NCBI GenBank assembly: GCA_038845865.1
Contig: JAWBQJ010000001.1
Span: forward strand, 310,001-374,000
DNA: 64,000 bases
Reading direction: 5' to 3'
From: Desulfurococcaceae archaeon
GTDB taxonomy: Archaea; Thermoproteota; Thermoprotei_A; Sulfolobales; Desulfurococcaceae
The position numbers were made by a program, and so were the translations under genes. The number at the start of each line of letters is the position of its first letter. The first letter of the stretch is position 1. Positions 13,999-41,056 of this stretch are shown piece after piece. The notes beneath the pieces are model-generated. The model worked only from the letters and a program-made list of their open reading frames with translations, did not search any database and was not told the DNA's origin.

Positions 13999-14745
13999 TC
14001 ACCTCTTCTCGATCACCGTTAAAACCCCGCCGCGAGTCTTGTACCACGTTAATGCGAAAAGTGCGAGCGAGAGCGCCGTTAGGTACGCGATCGACACCTC
14101 TGCAGGTACACCTTCGCTTAAGCCTATGCCCAGCCTGAGTAAGCAGACAATGTGCGTTACGGGGTTAGCAACTAAAATCTCTCTTAGTGGTTTGGTTAGC
14201 CCGAAGAGCCTGTAGTATAGTGGCGTGGCGACGATGACGAGCATCATTAGGGACATGAGTACGGGTTCTAATTTGTACCTGCTCCGAACGCTGAGCCCGA
14301 GAATTAGTGCCGTGAATGAGAAGATCGTCGTGGAGTACAGTAGTCCTAGCGCCATGTACGCTCCGTGTACGCTACCCGCGATGAGCACGAGTGTTACTAC
14401 TCCGAGAACTACTGGTGTGGAGCTGAAAATCAACTGCGAGATGACGTTTGATGCTAGAAGCACTCTCAGCGAAACGGGTAAGGTGGCATAGAGCTCTAGC
14501 GCCTGCTCTTCAAACATGTTTGCTATGGATATAGCCGTCGGGTACACCAGCGCGGAGAACGACGTCATTACCAGGAAGCCAGTTAAGCCGGTTGCCAGTG
14601 ACTCGGGGTTACCACCTGAAAACATCACTACTACGACGAGGTACGTGAAGGGCAGTACAACCGTGACCATTACGAGAGTCATCCAGAAAAGCCTGTACAT
14701 CTTGAGCGTGAAGGACACGGACTTTAACAGGGTGGAGAGCTTCAA
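13999..14745 (-). CDS. ABC-2 type transporter permease of the peptide operon
   Basis: Integral membrane protein of 248 residues with about six hydrophobic segments and no hydrolase or peptidase domain, as in ABC-2 exporters. Starts are MKLSTLLKSVSFTLKMYRLFWMTLVMVTVVLPFTYLVVVVMF-like (first helix near residues 20-42), and the last helix is followed by the short tail TRGGVLTVIEKR. TTG 14745 overlaps the ATPase stop (TTGA), showing coupled synthesis with the ATP-binding gene. Together they should export a small molecule or peptide; the gene order places the radical-SAM-modified peptide as the likely cargo (inference). Confidence 0.85.
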   Translation of the reverse strand: MKLSTLLKSVSFTLKMYRLFWMTLVMVTVVLPFTYLVVVVMFSGGNPESLATGLTGFLVMTSFSALVYPTAISIANMFEEQALELYATLPVSLRVLLASNVISQLIFSSTPVVLGVVTLVLIAGSVHGAYMALGLLYSTTIFSFTALILGLSVRSRYKLEPVLMSLMMLVIVATPLYYRLFGLTKPLREILVANPVTHIVCLLRLGIGLSEGVPAEVSIAYLTALSLALFALTWYKTRGGVLTVIEKR

Positions 14746-15650
14746 GGCTGTACACCCCTGATGTAGGACTCTAAGAGGGTCTCTATCGAGGGGTATTCGA
14801 GGTATATTTTAACGTCGTCCCTGAGTTCTCCGTTGAAGGCCAAGTTTTCGAGGTCTACTAGTGCGTCTAGTAAGGACCTGTACCTAGCAACTACAAGCCC
14901 CTCGTTGACAGCTATAACGCTTCTTTTCAGCAGCTGGGCCACCTTGTCAGCATACTTCGTCATCAACCTCACTTCTGCACCACCTTCTACTTTTTCGAGG
15001 GTTGAGAAGTGGTTCACTACCCTCCCGTAGACCATCAAGTACACCCTGTCGCATAGCCTCTTCACCTCTTCGAGGTCATGGCTTACCAGTAGTATGGTCT
15101 TCCCCCTGCTCTTTTCGTGTGCAAGTATGTCCCAAACCAATCTCTTCTTGAATATGTCGATGAAGCTCGTAGGCTCGTCTAGTATTAAGAGCTCGCTGTT
15201 CTTTATGAGTGAAAGCGCTAGTAGCAGTAGCTTTCTCTGACCCACGGACAGCTGGTAGCCCATTTTATCCCTAACGCCCCACAAGCCTAGGGATTGTAGT
15301 ACTTCATGTACCCTAGTGTACGGTGTGCCGGATAGATCCGCGATGAACTTAGCCACTTCTATGACCTTGTGCGAAGGGTACACTAGTGGTAGTTGCGGCG
15401 TGTATGAAACCTCCTTCCTGATGACGTCTTGTTTTTCAACGGGGTTAGAGCCTAAAACTGTGATCTTACCGCTCGTCGGTTTAAGCACACCGATAACTTG
15501 CCTGACTAGCGTTGTTTTGCCGGCACCGTTGGGCCCCATGAGGCAGACGGCTTCACCTCTATAGACCTCCACCGACACGTTGACATTAGCCTTAATGCCG
15601 TTAGGATAGATCTTCGTAACCTTTTCCGCGGCCACTACGAGGTCACTCAC
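14742..15650 (-). CDS. ABC transporter ATP-binding protein of the peptide operon
   Basis: ATPase of an ABC-2 exporter, 302 residues from the GTG at 15650, which lies inside the end of the radical SAM gene (8-nt overlap with its TGA). Walker A is LMGPNGAGKTTLV, the signature is YQLSVGQRKLLLLALSLI (LSVGQ in place of LSGGQ), Walker B is ELLILDEPTSFID, and the H-loop is ILLVSHD. A C-terminal extension of about 80 residues is of the type seen in drug/peptide exporters. Longer upstream frame (to 15707) would run through the maturase coding end and is not needed. Confidence 0.9.
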   Translation of the reverse strand: MSDLVVAAEKVTKIYPNGIKANVNVSVEVYRGEAVCLMGPNGAGKTTLVRQVIGVLKPTSGKITVLGSNPVEKQDVIRKEVSYTPQLPLVYPSHKVIEVAKFIADLSGTPYTRVHEVLQSLGLWGVRDKMGYQLSVGQRKLLLLALSLIKNSELLILDEPTSFIDIFKKRLVWDILAHEKSRGKTILLVSHDLEEVKRLCDRVYLMVYGRVVNHFSTLEKVEGGAEVRLMTKYADKVAQLLKRSVIAVNEGLVVARYRSLLDALVDLENLAFNGELRDDVKIYLEYPSIETLLESYIRGVQP

Positions 15651-16962
15651 CGGGCTCCACCAGCTCCCTGTACTTCGATACCGCGTAGGCGCGTAGGAGC
15701 CTCTCAAGGTGCTCTTCGCCGTAAAGTACTTTGAGGCACGTGGGCACGTTTTTCGACTTCAAGTAGATGCAACCACCGTAGCACATGGGCGCGTACTTGC
15801 AGTTCTTGGTGCACGGGGGATCGTAGACTACTGGGTGGAACTTCTCCGGCGATACCACAATGGTTTTTTCATCCACTATCCTGCCTATAGGTGTCCCGTA
15901 CATGTACGCTGGACATAGGTAGACGTTTAGCTTTTCATCCACCGCGTACCCGTTTACGTACTTGCATATGCACGGGCCTTTAACGAAGACCTTGGAGATC
16001 TTGAATCCTCTTTCAACCGCGTACTCTAGTACTTCCACTATTTTCCTCGATACGCTCATATAGTACTCGTGGTAGTTCTTCGACGTCTTGAACGGCGTGT
16101 AGTTAGCGACCTGCTCGGGGTGTACAGGTGACAGGTCCACGGCTACGACCTTTTTTTGTAACCCCAAGTCTGCTAGGAAGTCCACTAGCTCGCGTGCCCT
16201 CTCGATATTGTGTTCATCGACGTTAACCCTTATGCCGATGCTCTTGTGGTGCTTATCTACGAAGGCGAGTGTGTTGTCCACTATCGTGCTGAATGATCCG
16301 CGGCCGTTCTTGAAAGGTCTTCGACCATCATGAACCTCCTTTACGCCGTCTACGGTTACTTGTATCGTATTAACCGCTGTAACTACCTCTTCCACGTCTT
16401 TGCTGTAAATAGTGCCGTTAGTTATTACTGCGAGCTCCTTCTTAATACCGTACTCGGAAGCGAGCCTCTCTACGTCTTTAACCACTTTCTTCGCCATTGA
16501 GGTATTTAGTAGCGGTTCACCACCGTAAAGTGCTATGGCTATGAAGTCTGTTCCCCCTTTAACCCTCCTCTCGAGTAGGCCGTGTAGACTGTGCCACTCT
16601 CTCTCTGAAAGATCGTAACCATCCATGCTGGGTCTTAGAGATTGGTAGCAGTATATGCAGGCGAGGTTGCAGCGGCTCGTGAGGCCTAGGAAGAGCGAAA
16701 TGGCCTTTTTAGTGAATCTGAGTTCGCGTGATAGACGGTGATGTACCTCGTCTTCGAGGATGCCATCGTCTAGAATGACGTTAACCGAGAGAAGTTGCCT
16801 GTAAATTTCAGTGTCTGAAAGGAGGGGCCTTAAATCACCCCGCTTAATGGCGAGGCCTACTTCCCTATCAACTAAAAGGAGGGAACCGTGAAAGGTGTTG
16901 TAAACGAGGTCGAAGGAGGAGTTGAAGGGAAAAACCAAGTTGAACTTGGACAGCTTGACCAC
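15643..16962 (-). CDS. Radical SAM/SPASM peptide maturase
   Basis: Radical SAM enzyme of 439 residues with the [4Fe-4S] motif SRCNLACIYCYQ (Cys 98, 102, 105; CX3CX2C), GGEP at 147-150 (SAM binding) and a C-terminal SPASM domain with eight cysteines (331, 333, 350, 384, 388, 394, 398, 409; ends CTKNCKYAPMCYGGC), which binds auxiliary clusters. Residues 1-85 form a separate domain beginning FNLVFPFNSSFDLVYNTFHGSLLLVD, as in maturases of sactipeptides and ranthipeptides. GTG start. It lies 20 nt behind a 39-codon three-Cys peptide gene and 8 nt into an ABC exporter ATPase. I infer thioether or other radical crosslinking of that peptide; an anaerobic sulfatase-maturase role is less likely since no sulfatase is near. 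Confidence 0.9.
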   Translation of the reverse strand: MVKLSKFNLVFPFNSSFDLVYNTFHGSLLLVDREVGLAIKRGDLRPLLSDTEIYRQLLSVNVILDDGILEDEVHHRLSRELRFTKKAISLFLGLTSRCNLACIYCYQSLRPSMDGYDLSEREWHSLHGLLERRVKGGTDFIAIALYGGEPLLNTSMAKKVVKDVERLASEYGIKKELAVITNGTIYSKDVEEVVTAVNTIQVTVDGVKEVHDGRRPFKNGRGSFSTIVDNTLAFVDKHHKSIGIRVNVDEHNIERARELVDFLADLGLQKKVVAVDLSPVHPEQVANYTPFKTSKNYHEYYMSVSRKIVEVLEYAVERGFKISKVFVKGPCICKYVNGYAVDEKLNVYLCPAYMYGTPIGRIVDEKTIVVSPEKFHPVVYDPPCTKNCKYAPMCYGGCIYLKSKNVPTCLKVLYGEEHLERLLRAYAVSKYRELVEPGE

Positions 16963-34837: not shown

Positions 34838-35476
34838 ATGAGGGACCGGGCGAGAGGGCTCCTTGAGCAGGCACCAGTGCAGGTATTGATGTCGATGCAG
34901 ACATACAGTTGTTGCGGGCTGAAACGGGGGTTATCGGAAGTTACAGCAATTGCTATCTTAGTTGGTATTGTCCTAGTCTTATCGTTATCTTTCCTGGTGT
35001 TCATGCAAGGTAGCTTCATTTCCGTGCAAGACCTGCATACCCTTCAAAGACTGGTCTTAACCGAGAAGCTGAATACCGTGGTTAGGCTCATAGATTCTTC
35101 GGAAGACCGCGCAGTTTTCCTCTTTAGAAGGCTAGATACAGGTGACAGGGTAGCTTTCTTCGTGTACAATGAATCGGGGTACGTAGAGTGCTCCGGCATA
35201 GTTGCGAGTATTAACGGAGGCGAGATCGCGGATACCCACCTGCACAGAGTCGAAGACGTCATGGTCGTATCAGAAAACGATGTTTACAGCTTCAAGTACT
35301 ACGCCAGGAGTGCGGGGTACCCAGATACCGGCAACGTACACGTGTGTACTTTAAAAATTACTAAGAACGCGCTCGTGACACTAACGGGCATCACAACAGA
35401 GAGGTTTTCAATATTCGTTGTGGTGTACGTAAATGACGTACCGTACTTGGTTAACGTCTACGAGTATGCCCGCTAG
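34838..35476 (+). CDS. Pilin-like protein 1 (class III signal)
   Basis: A 212-residue protein with the prepilin cleavage context GLKRG-LSEVTAIAILVGIVLVLSLSF: Lys-Arg-Gly before a hydrophobic helix, expected PibD processing after Gly. The mature part is a beta-rich domain ending FSIFVVVYVNDVPYLVNVYEYAR, matching the end of the next protein (LYTVAIYSNKPYIVGIYEV). TATA TTATAAAT (34811-34818) places transcription at about ATG 34838, possibly leaderless; ATG 34889 with its own weak site gives a shorter signal peptide. First gene of the five-gene pilin-like region. Confidence 0.7.
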   Translation: MRDRARGLLEQAPVQVLMSMQTYSCCGLKRGLSEVTAIAILVGIVLVLSLSFLVFMQGSFISVQDLHTLQRLVLTEKLNTVVRLIDSSEDRAVFLFRRLDTGDRVAFFVYNESGYVECSGIVASINGGEIADTHLHRVEDVMVVSENDVYSFKYYARSAGYPDTGNVHVCTLKITKNALVTLTGITTERFSIFVVVYVNDVPYLVNVYEYAR

Positions 35477-35498
35477 CAGATTGATTAAATTTACTAAA

Positions 35499-35675
35499 TT
35501 TATTAACCTGGTAAACGTAATGGATAAACAGTAGGTGTAGTTGTCTTGGTTTTAAGGTTTATTAACCTGGTAAACGTAATGGATAAACAGTAGGTGTAGT
35601 TGTCTTGGTTTTAAGGTTTATTAACCTGGTAAACGTAATGGATAAACAGTAGGTGTAGTTGTCTTGGTTTTAAGG
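35499..35675 (+). repeat. Perfect 59-bp tandem repeat, three copies, carrying promoter and start signals
   Basis: Three identical units at 35499-35557, 35558-35616 and 35617-35675. Each holds TTTATTAA (offset 1-8, TATA-like), AGGTG (offset 35-39) and TTG (offset 48-50) followed by GTTTTAAGG. In the third copy the TTG (35664) is the start of pilin-like gene 2. In copies 1 and 2 the same TTG opens a 15-codon frame that stops in the following unit. Identity of all copies indicates recent or ongoing recombination. Confidence 0.97.
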
Positions 35676-36314
35676 GGGGAGAGCGCGTTACTGACTGCTA
35701 TTATATTTATTGGCGTTGCCCTCGTTATAGGAGTTGCCATGCTGAGCTACTTCACATCTATTGCTACCTACTACAGGGATCAAGTAGACCTATCTAGCCA
35801 CCTGCAGAGCGAAGCTTCAAACGTATTCGTAAACATCATTTCATACGATACCGCATCATCATCGCTTTGGTTCCTGCTCAAAAGAACTGATGGATCGAGA
35901 AGCAGCTTCTTCGTTATTGTAGATATGGGTTCTGAGTACTCGAACTGCTCAAACATATACGTCTCCAACCCTTACCACGATCAAGATGGCATTCTCTGCA
36001 ACTCCAATAACGACTGCGTCCAGGCTACTCCCGTGTATCGCGGACCCATGAACGGGGTGTATGTTCCGTGGGAAGGTGTAATAGTCGACTTCTCCTCGTA
36101 TGCGAAGACAGCGGGGTACACTTTATCCGATACTGTTTACGTGTGCAGGCTCAGCAATGTGTGCGAGTTCTCCGGTTCGCAGGGGCTCTGCTCCGAGAAC
36201 ACTATAGTTAAGATACAGTTACCTAGCTATGCTGGCGTGATCAGGTTATACACTGTCGCGATCTACAGTAACAAACCATACATTGTAGGCATCTACGAGG
36301 TGACGGTTTCTTGA
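35664..36314 (+). CDS. Pilin-like protein 2 (class III signal)
   Basis: A 216-residue protein beginning MVLRG-ESALLTAIIFIGVALVIGVAM: Arg-Gly, then Glu near the start of a hydrophobic helix, as in archaeal type IV pilins (expected cut after Gly 5). The extracellular domain has four to six Cys (NCSN, LCNSNNDC, VCRLSNVC, LCSEN), perhaps disulfides, and ends LYTVAIYSNKPYIVGIYEV like protein 1. TTG 35664 lies in the third copy of the 59-bp repeat, with AGGTG before it. The gene overlaps the next by 4 nt (TTGA). Probably a surface filament or adhesin subunit. Confidence 0.75.
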   Translation: MVLRGESALLTAIIFIGVALVIGVAMLSYFTSIATYYRDQVDLSSHLQSEASNVFVNIISYDTASSSLWFLLKRTDGSRSSFFVIVDMGSEYSNCSNIYVSNPYHDQDGILCNSNNDCVQATPVYRGPMNGVYVPWEGVIVDFSSYAKTAGYTLSDTVYVCRLSNVCEFSGSQGLCSENTIVKIQLPSYAGVIRLYTVAIYSNKPYIVGIYEVTVS

Positions 36315-37900
36315 AAGGTCAAGGAAGCATCATTGTGGCGGTTGTCTTCCTCTCAATAATAATGGTGTCCGTTGCACCGCTAGTTTTGCACATATACGGC
36401 ACAGCAACTAACATGGCATCCGCACCCGATGCCCCCGTATACAGGTTTCTCACTCTACAAGCTAAAATGATAAGCAGGGAAATTGTGGCGTTCTATAACG
36501 CTACGGACTCCACCCTGCTATTGGTAAATCGGGGGGGAGCGGGTATAAAGGTAGAACGGGTAGTGATATACGCTGACTGCGACGGTCGGGGCGTCTACAT
36601 AGACCCCGGAGTTAAAGATCTAGACATGCCTTCAGGGCTCGAGATAACAATGCAGATACCTCTTCCTACGCAATCGGTCTGCGGAAACCTGAAAACGAAT
36701 ACGTTATACCTCATAACATCAGAGGGGTTAGTAATAAGTAGCACGGTCATAACATACGAAGACATAGAGATGCTATCGAGGCAGGAATCGCAGACTACTA
36801 CAATAGTCCGGACGACCCTGCCCTCCGCCGTGATGGCCCTACCGTTTAAGGTGGGTCCAGGGGATAACACGAGTGACTTGTACTCTCTTCTGGGTGGTAA
36901 GGGATTTGAGGTATGCACACTAGACAGCATGGAGAACCCGACGAAGGTCGTCTCTTGTGCAAGCCTTGAAGGGGGCATGAAAGGAGGTGCCGGTACGGGT
37001 TACGTATGGAGCCTACGGAGAGTATACGTGAACACTAACATAAACATAAGTAACGTCATTAGAAACCTCTGGATAGGCTACGACCCGCGGAATGTTTCGA
37101 GGTACAACATAGTGATAACAGCGGATAGCGCGACACTGGCCACGCCTTCATACAGTACATCTTCTCCTGTCAGGATAAAGATATACGGCTTCGTGCCGGT
37201 AACGCCCCAGGGCATTCTCAGACTTGGCGGGACCTGGATGAGTGCACCAGACCAGGACATAGCAAAGTACACTTTCGTGAACGCCGCGTTGGTTTTAAAC
37301 GGTACGGCTGAAAGAGTTGAAATATATGAAAGGACCAGTGGCAACGAGACGGATTACAACCCGTACATAATGTTCATAAACACCGATAGAAGCCGGGGAT
37401 TCGCCGGAATACTCTTCACGACGATAGATAGAGCGTGGGGATTTTACTCTTCCAGGAACGAGCACGTGGATACCCTGCTTGATTACTCCATAAAATCCCT
37501 AGTCCTAGTGTACAAAGACTACTCATTGTCCAATATCAAGTACTCCAGCGTCACTATAGCGGTTAACTATAGGTTTCACGACAATGAGGGTAGCGATGCC
37601 CAGGGAACTTCAGTTGACAAGCCTATAATGCTCGTCGGCCTCGTTGACGCGAGCGGCGTTATTTACAGCTATAGAAGCTTCACGTTCAGGGAGCTAACGA
37701 GGTATGAGGACACATACCCTCCAACCGCACAGGCGCAGAGCAGCATGATCTTCATACCCCTACCACCCGCTGAGCAGGGAGAAAAAGTGTACTACGTGTT
37801 CATAGCGATCCAGGACCCCTACCACTATAACGGCTACCTCGACGACCTCGACTTAACACTTTACATAGAGTCGTTGGTGATCGTTCCAGTTACGAGGTGA
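36311..37900 (+). CDS. Large pilin-like protein 3 (class III signal, about 530 residues)
   Basis: Starts MKGQGSIIVAVVFLSIIMVSVAPLVLHIYG: Lys-Gly, then a Gln-Gly-Ser start of a hydrophobic helix, similar to pilin/archaellin-like signals. The 490-residue ectodomain is beta-rich with several Asn-X-Ser/Thr sites. It ends YYVFIAIQDPYHYNGYLDDLDLTLYIESLVIVPV, homologous to the ends of the next two proteins. TTG start overlaps the previous stop (4 nt), and its own stop overlaps the next gene's ribosome site. Such a large ectodomain is unlike ordinary pilins and suits an adhesive thread or tip protein. Confidence 0.7.
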   Translation: MKGQGSIIVAVVFLSIIMVSVAPLVLHIYGTATNMASAPDAPVYRFLTLQAKMISREIVAFYNATDSTLLLVNRGGAGIKVERVVIYADCDGRGVYIDPGVKDLDMPSGLEITMQIPLPTQSVCGNLKTNTLYLITSEGLVISSTVITYEDIEMLSRQESQTTTIVRTTLPSAVMALPFKVGPGDNTSDLYSLLGGKGFEVCTLDSMENPTKVVSCASLEGGMKGGAGTGYVWSLRRVYVNTNINISNVIRNLWIGYDPRNVSRYNIVITADSATLATPSYSTSSPVRIKIYGFVPVTPQGILRLGGTWMSAPDQDIAKYTFVNAALVLNGTAERVEIYERTSGNETDYNPYIMFINTDRSRGFAGILFTTIDRAWGFYSSRNEHVDTLLDYSIKSLVLVYKDYSLSNIKYSSVTIAVNYRFHDNEGSDAQGTSVDKPIMLVGLVDASGVIYSYRSFTFRELTRYEDTYPPTAQAQSSMIFIPLPPAEQGEKVYYVFIAIQDPYHYNGYLDDLDLTLYIESLVIVPVTR

Positions 37901-37905
37901 TGCCC

Positions 37906-39375
37906 GTGGCAGTGAAACACGGCGTAAAAGGAGTGGTCGAGGCCGTTGCGGCAATACTGGCCTTTGCTTTAATATCGGCGTCACTAATGTTCATTCTGCT
38001 GTACTTTTATTCAACAACTTACCAGCAGGTAGCACCTATACCAGGCGGCTACGCGGGCGAGAACCTGGTACTGTTCATGGTGAAGGACCATGATGGTAAC
38101 ATGGCGTTGAGCGTTAAGAATGTTGGCTCGGTCGTAACGCAAATAGATTACGTACTGGCATTTAATAGCGATTACTTGGACAAGGCCGTCATTAGCTTGG
38201 AGAGCACTGCAGTGTGCACTGCTAACCAACGTATAATCGCTCCTGGACGCGTAGCTAATGTGACTTGCACCGGTAATTACCTACCTATAGCTGTAGTTAC
38301 CAGTAACGGAAGGGTTTTCTCGGTAGATCCGCAGCTTCACGCGATCTCGTTGAGGCGAGTTATCGGCATACACTTAGAGACGGTGTACGGGGGTATCAAC
38401 ATCACGACTACATCGCAGATACTAGCCTACCTAGAGGACAGCACGCTACTACGTAGCGGCGCGATTAATACATCCCTACTACTGACCCCCGTGGTAAACT
38501 ACACGGACACAGAAATATATGTTGAAGGAGAATTAAACGCCTCGCTAGTAATTATCGGGAAGAACCCTCTGAACAATAGAACAAACATGCTCATAATAGG
38601 CAACGGAACAGCGGGATCCTACATTGCAGTAATCACGAGAGAAAACCGTATTTCCTTGTCCACGGTAGTGCGGTACAGGCTGAAAATAGAGAACTTTACG
38701 GGAGACGTGAATTTTGAGGTAGGTATACATGCATGCTATGTGAATGAAAACAAGGCGTGCAAGGTTGTTTTCGGGGGTGTTGCTAGTAGGGTTACACTGT
38801 ATGGTGCTAATGTAAATGCTTCGGGGGTCGTTGGCCTAGACCCTTACGTATTCGTAGGGGACATCAACAATAATGGTAACGTTGAAGCGATACTCGTCAC
38901 CCAGGACTTTGGAGTAGGTAACAGCACCACGATAAACGACCGCTTAGGCCCCCTCCACTACCTAGATGCGACCGCGGAGCCCATTAGACTGGTCTTCACT
39001 AACGTGCCCATAGACAGTGGAGCCTACTCTTCAGCCATTCTCAGCGTTAGAATGTTCTTCTGGGATAACTCACTCGACGATATAAGCGATAACGACAACA
39101 GAATACTCATAAGGGTTGGCTTGTACGACAATGTAAGCAAGTCTTTTGTATACGCTACCTCTCTTAGTTATTACGAGCTCTGCAGGTACAGGCACGTGAA
39201 ACCATTCTCCATATCGTACATAGCCAAAGACTTCGCGATATTCATACCGAAAACGGGAAGCACATACTACGTGGCGGTAGAGCTCCTGGACCCCTTCTAC
39301 GCGGATGGCACGAAGAACGATGCAGATATAATAGTGGGCATAGAGTATATAGGCATAGGACTGGCTACGAGGTGA
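37906..39375 (+). CDS. Large pilin-like protein 4 (class III signal, about 489 residues)
   Basis: N-terminus MAVKHGVKG-VVEAVAAILAFALISASLMFILLYFY with Lys-Gly before the hydrophobic helix and Glu at mature position 3. The ectodomain contains FVGDINNNGNVEAILVTQDFGVG, a Ca-binding EF-like D-x-N-x-N-x motif, and ends YYVAVELLDPFYADGTKNDADIIVGIEYIGIGLATR. Protein 5 has the matching FTGDIDGNGLVDLIFITEDAYYG and a similar C-terminus. GTG 37906 is preferred because GAGGTG ends 6 nt before it; GTG 37897 and ATG 37900 lie in the site. Fourth gene of the operon. Confidence 0.7.
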   Translation: MAVKHGVKGVVEAVAAILAFALISASLMFILLYFYSTTYQQVAPIPGGYAGENLVLFMVKDHDGNMALSVKNVGSVVTQIDYVLAFNSDYLDKAVISLESTAVCTANQRIIAPGRVANVTCTGNYLPIAVVTSNGRVFSVDPQLHAISLRRVIGIHLETVYGGINITTTSQILAYLEDSTLLRSGAINTSLLLTPVVNYTDTEIYVEGELNASLVIIGKNPLNNRTNMLIIGNGTAGSYIAVITRENRISLSTVVRYRLKIENFTGDVNFEVGIHACYVNENKACKVVFGGVASRVTLYGANVNASGVVGLDPYVFVGDINNNGNVEAILVTQDFGVGNSTTINDRLGPLHYLDATAEPIRLVFTNVPIDSGAYSSAILSVRMFFWDNSLDDISDNDNRILIRVGLYDNVSKSFVYATSLSYYELCRYRHVKPFSISYIAKDFAIFIPKTGSTYYVAVELLDPFYADGTKNDADIIVGIEYIGIGLATR

Positions 39376-39379
39376 TCCT

Positions 39380-41056
39380 TTGTCCCACGGGAGGGGGTCC
39401 AAGGGCATTTCAACCGTAATCGCCTCTTTCCTACTATCCATGGTCATCCTAGTCGTGTTTACCTACGTGTTCCTAAGCATAGTTGCTTCTACTCAAAGCG
39501 GCTCTCTAGCCCTCAAGAACGTTATAAGGTATTCTCATAAACACGAGATCGCCCAACTTATAGCTAACAAGTCAGTGGATAGGACGTACCTCCTCAACAT
39601 CGGGGCAAGCGACATAGCTGTGGACAAGGTCGTCGTGAGGACTTCTGACGGGTTCATCGAAGTCAGGGATTTCCTAGATGTATGTAGTGGTTCAAATACC
39701 ATAAGGGCACAGGAGGAAGCTGAGTGTAGCGTGGAGTACGATTACATAGCGGTAATAACGGTGGAAGGAGTCGTCATTTACCCGCAAGTTCCGAAGCCGG
39801 TTATAGAAACCCTCATTCAGTATTCTAGCACAACGTACATGGTGTCGTTGGTATTTAACATTACAAACCCCGAGGAGCTATCCAGCCTATTCGATGTCAG
39901 CGATTACCTCGTGGACAAGCCATACACGCGTGTACAGTATGTTAGAGGGGTGAAATCGGATAAGTTACTGCTACTACCCCCTGGGCAGGAAAGCGAGTTC
40001 TACAACGCTACGCTTGAAGCAGATAACATACCTTTCGGAGTCGTCGTTGTAGGGTACGATCCCAGCTGGATCAGGGAGAAGAGCGCTAATCCTGCAGTGG
40101 AATCTCAACCCAGATTCATCATAATGATCGCGGGGCCCGGCTTCACGGGCTCGGACTCGGTACGCATCAATAACAGAAACTATCCGCTGAGCGGAAACGG
40201 CTTTAGAATAGTGATCCGGAACTACACGGGAGTAATAGAAATAAGGCAAGTTAGGCAAACGGGTAATTGGCAGGAGATCGGGACAATAGCGTGTAGTTCA
40301 ACTATACCGGGCTACTGTCCTAGCAACTACCTGCCTGCCATAGGTGCGTGGTATTACGGTTCAACTGATAGAGGCCTCAACTTGAGGCTGTACTTGAACG
40401 GCTTTGCGACGTATATAGCTAGGTTCATGAGAATAGCCTCTGGAAACGCGCCAACCGGTGAGACAAACTACTACCCCTTCCTCTTTACCGGGGATATTGA
40501 CGGCAATGGATTGGTTGACTTGATATTCATAACTGAGGATGCTTACTACGGTGATAAGAACAGAATCAACGACATGTACGGTAGTGATGATTTAAGCGAT
40601 TGGAGCACCGAGCCCCTGGTCATAAAGCTGTTGCAGGTGGGCAGAGCGCTGGGATATGAAGAGGGCTATGTAGATGGGGGCAGGTTCGCGGGCTTGGCAC
40701 TATACATAAACCTCTTCTTCCACGACAACTCTCACCCCGATGAAACGCAACTCGAAGACATCGACAGAACAGATTGGGTACTCAGAATTCTGCTCATTGA
40801 CGAGTACGGTAATGAGTACGTTGTTAGGGAATACAGGTACCAGGAAATATGCAACTACCATAAAACGCGTGTAACTAGCTTCGGAAAGGACAACTACTTT
40901 GTAAAGATATCCCAGTCAATATACATCCCCATACCTTCAGCTGGAAAGTACTGGGTTGCAATAGCGCTTCAAGACCCCTATGGAACGGGTAGAACAAACG
41001 ATGCAGACGTAACGATAGGTATAGAATTTATAGGAGTACTTCCCTTCATCAGGTAG
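39380..41056 (+). CDS. Large pilin-like protein 5 (class III signal, 558 residues)
   Basis: Begins MSHGRGSKG-ISTVIASFLLSMVILVVFTYVFLSIV: Lys-Gly, then ISTVIA, a canonical archaeal prepilin helix. The ectodomain holds FTGDIDGNGLVDLIF (possible Ca site) near residue 370 and ends YWVAIALQDPYGTGRTNDADVTIGIEFIGVLPF, homologous to proteins 3 and 4. TTG 39380 follows GAGGTG by 5 nt. It is the last gene of the run. No prepilin peptidase, assembly ATPase or TadC-type platform gene is in the window, so these must use machinery encoded elsewhere. Confidence 0.72.
   Translation: MSHGRGSKGISTVIASFLLSMVILVVFTYVFLSIVASTQSGSLALKNVIRYSHKHEIAQLIANKSVDRTYLLNIGASDIAVDKVVVRTSDGFIEVRDFLDVCSGSNTIRAQEEAECSVEYDYIAVITVEGVVIYPQVPKPVIETLIQYSSTTYMVSLVFNITNPEELSSLFDVSDYLVDKPYTRVQYVRGVKSDKLLLLPPGQESEFYNATLEADNIPFGVVVVGYDPSWIREKSANPAVESQPRFIIMIAGPGFTGSDSVRINNRNYPLSGNGFRIVIRNYTGVIEIRQVRQTGNWQEIGTIACSSTIPGYCPSNYLPAIGAWYYGSTDRGLNLRLYLNGFATYIARFMRIASGNAPTGETNYYPFLFTGDIDGNGLVDLIFITEDAYYGDKNRINDMYGSDDLSDWSTEPLVIKLLQVGRALGYEEGYVDGGRFAGLALYINLFFHDNSHPDETQLEDIDRTDWVLRILLIDEYGNEYVVREYRYQEICNYHKTRVTSFGKDNYFVKISQSIYIPIPSAGKYWVAIALQDPYGTGRTNDADVTIGIEFIGVLPFIR

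Follow-up and report, generated by a model that had tools for sequence, protein, structure and literature searches.

A perfect threefold repeat of a promoter-like initiation module ahead of a pilin-like gene operon in a Desulfurococcaceae archaeon

Three head-to-tail copies of a 59-bp unit stand directly upstream of a pilin-like gene in the genome of a Desulfurococcaceae archaeon. Positions 35499–35675 (+) of the window, by which we mean the whole 64,000-nucleotide stretch that was analyzed, consist of exactly 3.0 copies of the unit at 100% identity (TRF score 354), and an array this perfect cannot be attributed to chance. The gene that follows, gene B, overlaps gene C, which overlaps gene D, and gene E starts 4 bp after D, so that the array heads a four-gene operon, B–E. 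On balance we consider it probable that the array is a promoter tandem repeat, that is, a recent local expansion of the initiation module of B–E whose copy number would set at most a graded output. Possibly, the three units act as core promoters in series that raise the output of the operon. The array is apparently the first archaeal example of a kind of repeat known from bacteria and fungi, an assignment that rests on one draft genome.

The repeat unit and its promoter-like features

The unit begins exactly at the TATA-like box TTTATTAA (offset 0) and ends after codon 4 of gene B (M-V-L-R); in each copy, AGGTG and TTG lie at offsets 34 and 47, respectively (Table 1). A sequence-only reading of this DNA had described three perfect copies with these elements at matching offsets, and both TRF and a recheck of the offsets bear this out; it had also stated that only the third TTG opens the pilin-like gene, which the sequence confirms. 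The first two TTG codons open identical 15-codon frames. Each frame terminates 11 nt short of the TTG that follows, and its stop codon overlaps the ribosome site of the following copy, an arrangement that would permit reinitiation. The third TTG starts the 216 codons of gene B; from the upstream in-frame stop (TAA, 35643) to the conserved motif of the signal peptide, no other ATG, GTG or TTG is in frame.

Table 1. Features of the array, its neighboring genes and other tandem repeats (window positions unless a relative's locus is given)
Feature	Position	Strand	Description
Gene A	34838..35476	+	Upstream pilin-like, 212 aa; arch_flag_Nterm E 0.00089, 18.7 bits vs cut-off 20
Repeat copy 1	35499..35557	+	TTTATTAA 35499-35506, AGGTG 35533-35537, TTG 35546, 15-codon frame 35546-35593; promoter-model score 5.64 with native flank
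Repeat copy 2	35558..35616	+	TTTATTAA 35558-35565, AGGTG 35592-35596, TTG 35605, 15-codon frame 35605-35652; promoter-model score 10.35
Repeat copy 3	35617..35675	+	TTTATTAA 35617-35624, AGGTG 35651-35655, TTG 35664 = gene B start; promoter-model score 10.35
Gene B	35664..36314	+	216-aa pilin/archaellin-like protein, signal peptide MVLRG/ESALLT; heads operon B-E
Gene C	36311..37900	+	529 aa, overlaps B stop; class III signal-peptide-like N terminus (by eye); syntenic ORF in L017
Gene D	37897..39375	+	492 aa, overlaps C stop; syntenic ORF in L017; weak BasB match, E 0.0079, below cut-off
Gene E	39380..41056	+	558 aa, 4 bp after D; syntenic ORF in L017; weak UpsB match, E 0.012, below cut-off
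Other TRF row 1	L119 12919-13340, relative G028		132 bp, 3.2 copies, perfect unit; CRISPR array, same spacer pair three times in row
Other TRF row 2			25-bp unit; inside an ORF
Other TRF row 3	L113 11308-11400, relative G026		Perfect G-rich 36-bp repeat, 2.6 copies; outside predicted ORFs, 282 bp from nearest ORF start

The array takes up most of the 187-bp gap between genes A and B, both of which lie on the plus strand. Partial copies are absent at both of its flanks; the first duplication thus involved no recognizable microhomology between the ends that it joined. The sequence to the left of copy 1, ATTTACTAAA, lies outside the unit. Copy 1 keeps the native flank, TTACTAAA, whereas copies 2 and 3 are flanked by the junction TTTTAAGG, i.e., the end of the preceding unit, which corresponds to codons 2–4 of gene B. 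A coding protein repeat was ruled out, the unit length not being a multiple of 3 and the frames containing stops.

The elements of the unit are positioned as is typical of this genome. TATA-like words peak about −50 to −35 from gene starts (464 kb of the genome) and the box of the unit lies at −47; GGTG peaks at −15 to −11 (47 occurrences in 218 upstream regions), with the GGTG of the unit at −12; and C is favored at +8/+9 of the TATA sites of the genome, matching TTTATTAACC. These positions agree with the earlier claim that every copy carries a promoter, a ribosome site and a start codon, and each copy is likely to be a core promoter.

We scored the boxes using an own-genome motif, aatTAaaggTTTTTAA, trained on 186 upstream regions with gene B excluded. 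Copies 2 and 3 reach 10.35, above both the 95% level (7.2) and the 99% level (8.7) of random 50-mers, and copy 1, at 5.64, falls between the 75% and 90% levels. The lead of copies 2 and 3 comes from the repeat junction: since the TATA box is the very first element of the unit, these two copies acquire a new flank there. A score at the level of the junction is reached by 12 of 4850 possible local duplications, in a test that is post hoc and uses a weak model. The promoter model is indeed crude, its best site being often misplaced on 16 tRNA genes. Own-genome models retrained on either half agreed in part: those from the second half gave 12.9 and 13.2 for copies 2/3 versus 8.9 and 7.2 for copy 1, and those from the first half gave 7.8 versus 8.1 (copy 1) with 14 positions and 9.5 versus 8.1 with 16. 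In an anchored test, the preference upstream of the box was only mild and about as large in the reverse-strand control, while models from G002 (57 regions) and from G010, G020, G024 and G026 pooled (113 regions) were different, poorer motifs with no clear preference for copies 2/3. The classical BRE consensus RNWAAW would favor the ACTAAA of copy 1. That the repeat junction gave a better promoter than the original flank is offered as a suggestion.

A plausible course of events is a local, recent tandem duplication, followed by further expansion through slippage or unequal crossing-over. The module copied would comprise the TATA box, a start point about 25–28 nt downstream, the GGTG site, the TTG and codons 1–4. 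We infer that transcription from the last promoter (TATA at −47) would yield a short leader of about 14–18 nt carrying GGTG, and that additional transcripts from the other two promoters would have longer leaders, in which one or two of the 15-codon frames are included.

The array may be unstable in copy number, and a sequence check indicates that copy numbers from 1 to 5 all retain the TTG and frame of gene B together with at least one TATA box. Since gain or loss of whole units keeps gene B intact, copy number would, if anything, grade the output of B–E and not switch it ON or OFF. The phase-variation switch put forward in the sequence-only reading is not sustained by this result, and we ruled out a phase-variable ON/OFF contingency locus on the same grounds.

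Distribution and age of the array

In its own genome (1.45 Mb, 8 contigs), the 59-bp unit is found at one place only. We surveyed 101 stretches totaling 2.064 Mb using TRF: 464 kb of the own genome and 80 stretches of 13 relatives. Units of at least 25 bp with at least 85% match gave four rows, the pilin-operon array included, and this array is the one array of a unit of at least 25 bp in the 464 kb of the own genome, so that repeats of promoters are no widespread feature there. The 132-bp repeat of G028 is a tandem expansion inside a CRISPR array, and at no gene start in the 2.064 Mb did TRF detect a second array of these dimensions. Searches with the array sequence gave no match beyond chance level in the other seven genomes of the genus.

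Two other origins were rejected. A mobile or dispersed element is ruled out by the single place in the own genome, by family matches that are weak and at chance level, and by the absence of the 37-nt core from viral contigs. Derivation of the unit from the end of gene A, based on a 13-nt similarity (ACCTGGTAAACGT and ACTTGGTTAACGT), fares no better, as 101 of 500 shuffles reach its score.

Homologues of gene B are present in 21 of the 214 genomes of the order (E <= 1e-8, own genome included). Within the family they are confined to two of the eight members of one genus, namely the own genome and G006, and the remaining homologues belong to other families; the gene is common in family f3, which includes a record titled Ignisphaera sp. 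A weak, broken fragment (E 6.4e-5) is found in G017. The patchy occurrence of the pilin-like cluster (34838–41056) suggests transfer or repeated loss.

We read the region upstream of B in 20 homologue loci. L049, whose contig begins with the gene itself, was left out, as were the second loci listed for gene A (L067–L069); for L055 and L057, which show no standard start codon near the match, the upstream distances are rough. None of the homologue loci examined has a tandem repeat ahead of B, and the array therefore looks like a recent local expansion, as the sequence-only reading had concluded from the identity of the copies. At 11 of the 20 loci, a promoter-like site with a score of at least 7 is present no more than 90 bp ahead of B, which suggests that having a promoter immediately before this gene is an older trait; the 8 loci with a co-directional ORF that ends 5–63 bp upstream include 4 with such a site. 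The A and B homologues of G006 are divergent (L005 287–2136), so that B must use its own promoter there, and the contrast with the co-directional arrangement in the own genome indicates that the A–B junction was rearranged within the genus. Ignisphaera sp. Bin S33 (L017) keeps the order A–E with an A–B gap of 6 bp and no strong site (score 4.6), from which it appears that B can also lack a promoter of its own.

Competing explanations and known parallels

The array could also be a neutral recent duplication, of which only the most downstream copy matters for B–E while the other two are passengers, to be lost by slippage. It is unique to its own genome among the genomes examined, the surveyed 2.064 Mb hold no other such array at a gene start, the edges of the repeat coincide with the ends of the unit, with no partial copy beside them, and nothing points to selection, all of which speaks for a neutral event. 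Less easily accommodated are the exact start of the copies at the TATA box, with all initiation features retained, and the junction site, which is better than the original by the own-genome model, although the supporting figure of 12 in 4850 is subject to the limits given above. We regard neutrality as possible, if somewhat unlikely. An archaeal contingency locus would go further than the promoter tandem repeat that we favor: a TBP/TFB-type promoter, ribosome site and start codon would vary in copy number within the population and produce stepwise surface-filament output, the junction having built a stronger promoter as the first codons of the pilin (GTTTTAAGG) became the flank of the copied TATA box. 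We know of no archaeal contingency locus of the promoter copy-number type, and we think this reading doubtful.

Because the genome assembly is at draft level (8 contigs) and the perfect 177-bp array with its flanks is longer than common short reads, the array or its copy count might be a short-read assembly error, the true number being one, two or more than three. The array lies, however, inside a 560-kb contig, and the usual failing of assemblers is to collapse perfect tandem copies, not to create them, a point argued likewise in a report on Mycobacterium tuberculosis (PMC12817950); we consider an assembly error quite improbable. We give even less credence to a post-transcriptional or operator device, in which the array would provide three regulator binding sites, or a series of leader frames, 15 codons each, through which translation of B would be tuned on mRNA reading through from gene A. 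Such a series would suit the stop codon of each short frame, 11 nt ahead of the TTG that follows and overlapping the ribosome site there, and the co-directional A and B, whose arrangement would let read-through from A cross the array, but in relatives whose A and B are co-directional the gap is 5–63 bp and holds no such frames, and promoter features account for the content of the unit more simply.

Read as a promoter tandem repeat, the array has its nearest counterpart in M. tuberculosis; identical head-to-tail copies stand immediately upstream of gene B. The M. tuberculosis promoter repeats have units of 57 bp (dop), 58 bp (lpdA-glpD2) and 54–56 bp (cysG-efpA) in variable copy number, with copy-number variation shown within populations, at 10^-2 to 10^-3 per chromosome (PMC12817950). 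In both systems the units are of nearly the same length and are arrayed head to tail right before a gene or operon, and dop has three copies in one strain, there within one annotated version of the coding region (PMC12817950). They differ in that the M. tuberculosis promoters are bacterial, whereas the archaeal array consists of a probable TATA promoter in a unit that also contains a ribosome site, a start codon and four codons. The sequence-only reading had held that no such crenarchaeal mechanism is known; this stands insofar as the open-licence literature searched yielded no archaeal promoter tandem repeat, but among prokaryotes M. tuberculosis offers a precedent (PMC12817950).

Resistant alleles of Aspergillus fumigatus cyp51A (TR34/TR46) likewise carry a short promoter tandem duplication, but they are fungal and the repeat contains transcription-factor binding sites and not a start codon (PMC9239056, PMC5146965). 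Borg repeats resemble the array in being perfect, recently formed, locus-specific and head-to-tail in an archaeal setting, many of them intergenic; unlike the array, they are many per element, extrachromosomal and virtually absent from host chromosomes, and the main text of the paper describing them never uses the word promoter (PMC9879509). Short tandem duplications have been recorded among spontaneous mutations in pyrE of Sulfolobus acidocaldarius (PMC3139894).

In bacteria and fungi, changes in promoter copy number are an accepted route to rapid changes in expression; if such change operates on the core promoter of an archaeal surface-filament operon, it would extend to archaea. Haloarchaeal rRNA operons have archaeal promoters arranged in series, several ahead of a single transcription unit, but these, unlike the array, are not known to be perfect identical copies that include a start codon. 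Alleles with one, two or three copies and a constant start codon would form a natural series for finding out whether TATA promoters in series have additive effects or interfere with one another. The flank upstream of the TATA box is the only difference between copy 1 and copies 2/3, so that its effect can be studied as well.

Gene products and other genes of the window

The N terminus of the gene B product, MVLRG/ESALLTAIIFIGVALVIG, is that of a class III signal peptide: short, with K/R-G before a hydrophobic helix in the alignment. The predicted structure combines a long N-terminal helix (residues 5–53) with a beta domain (mean pLDDT 67.5). Its structural neighbors include subunits of the archaellum (9eq7, Z 7.5; 7txi, Z 6.4) and of a type IV pilus (8fk7, Z 6.1) alongside unrelated entries of similar Z, and all matches have Z < 8, below the level that excludes common arrangements. 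Gene B has no Pfam hit, no Foldseek match at E <= 0.001 and nothing relevant in a solved-structure profile search, and its match to NCBIfam UpsB (E 0.0076, 16.3 bits) is below the cut-off of 70.

The product of gene A is 212 aa long versus 394–400 aa in three relatives, with about 200 columns missing from the middle of the alignment and the frame kept. Elsewhere in the window, at 13999–16962, genes resembling ABC transporter permeases and ATPases adjoin a protein with a CxxxCxxC radical-SAM-like motif (by eye), and this region is possibly a peptide-modification locus.
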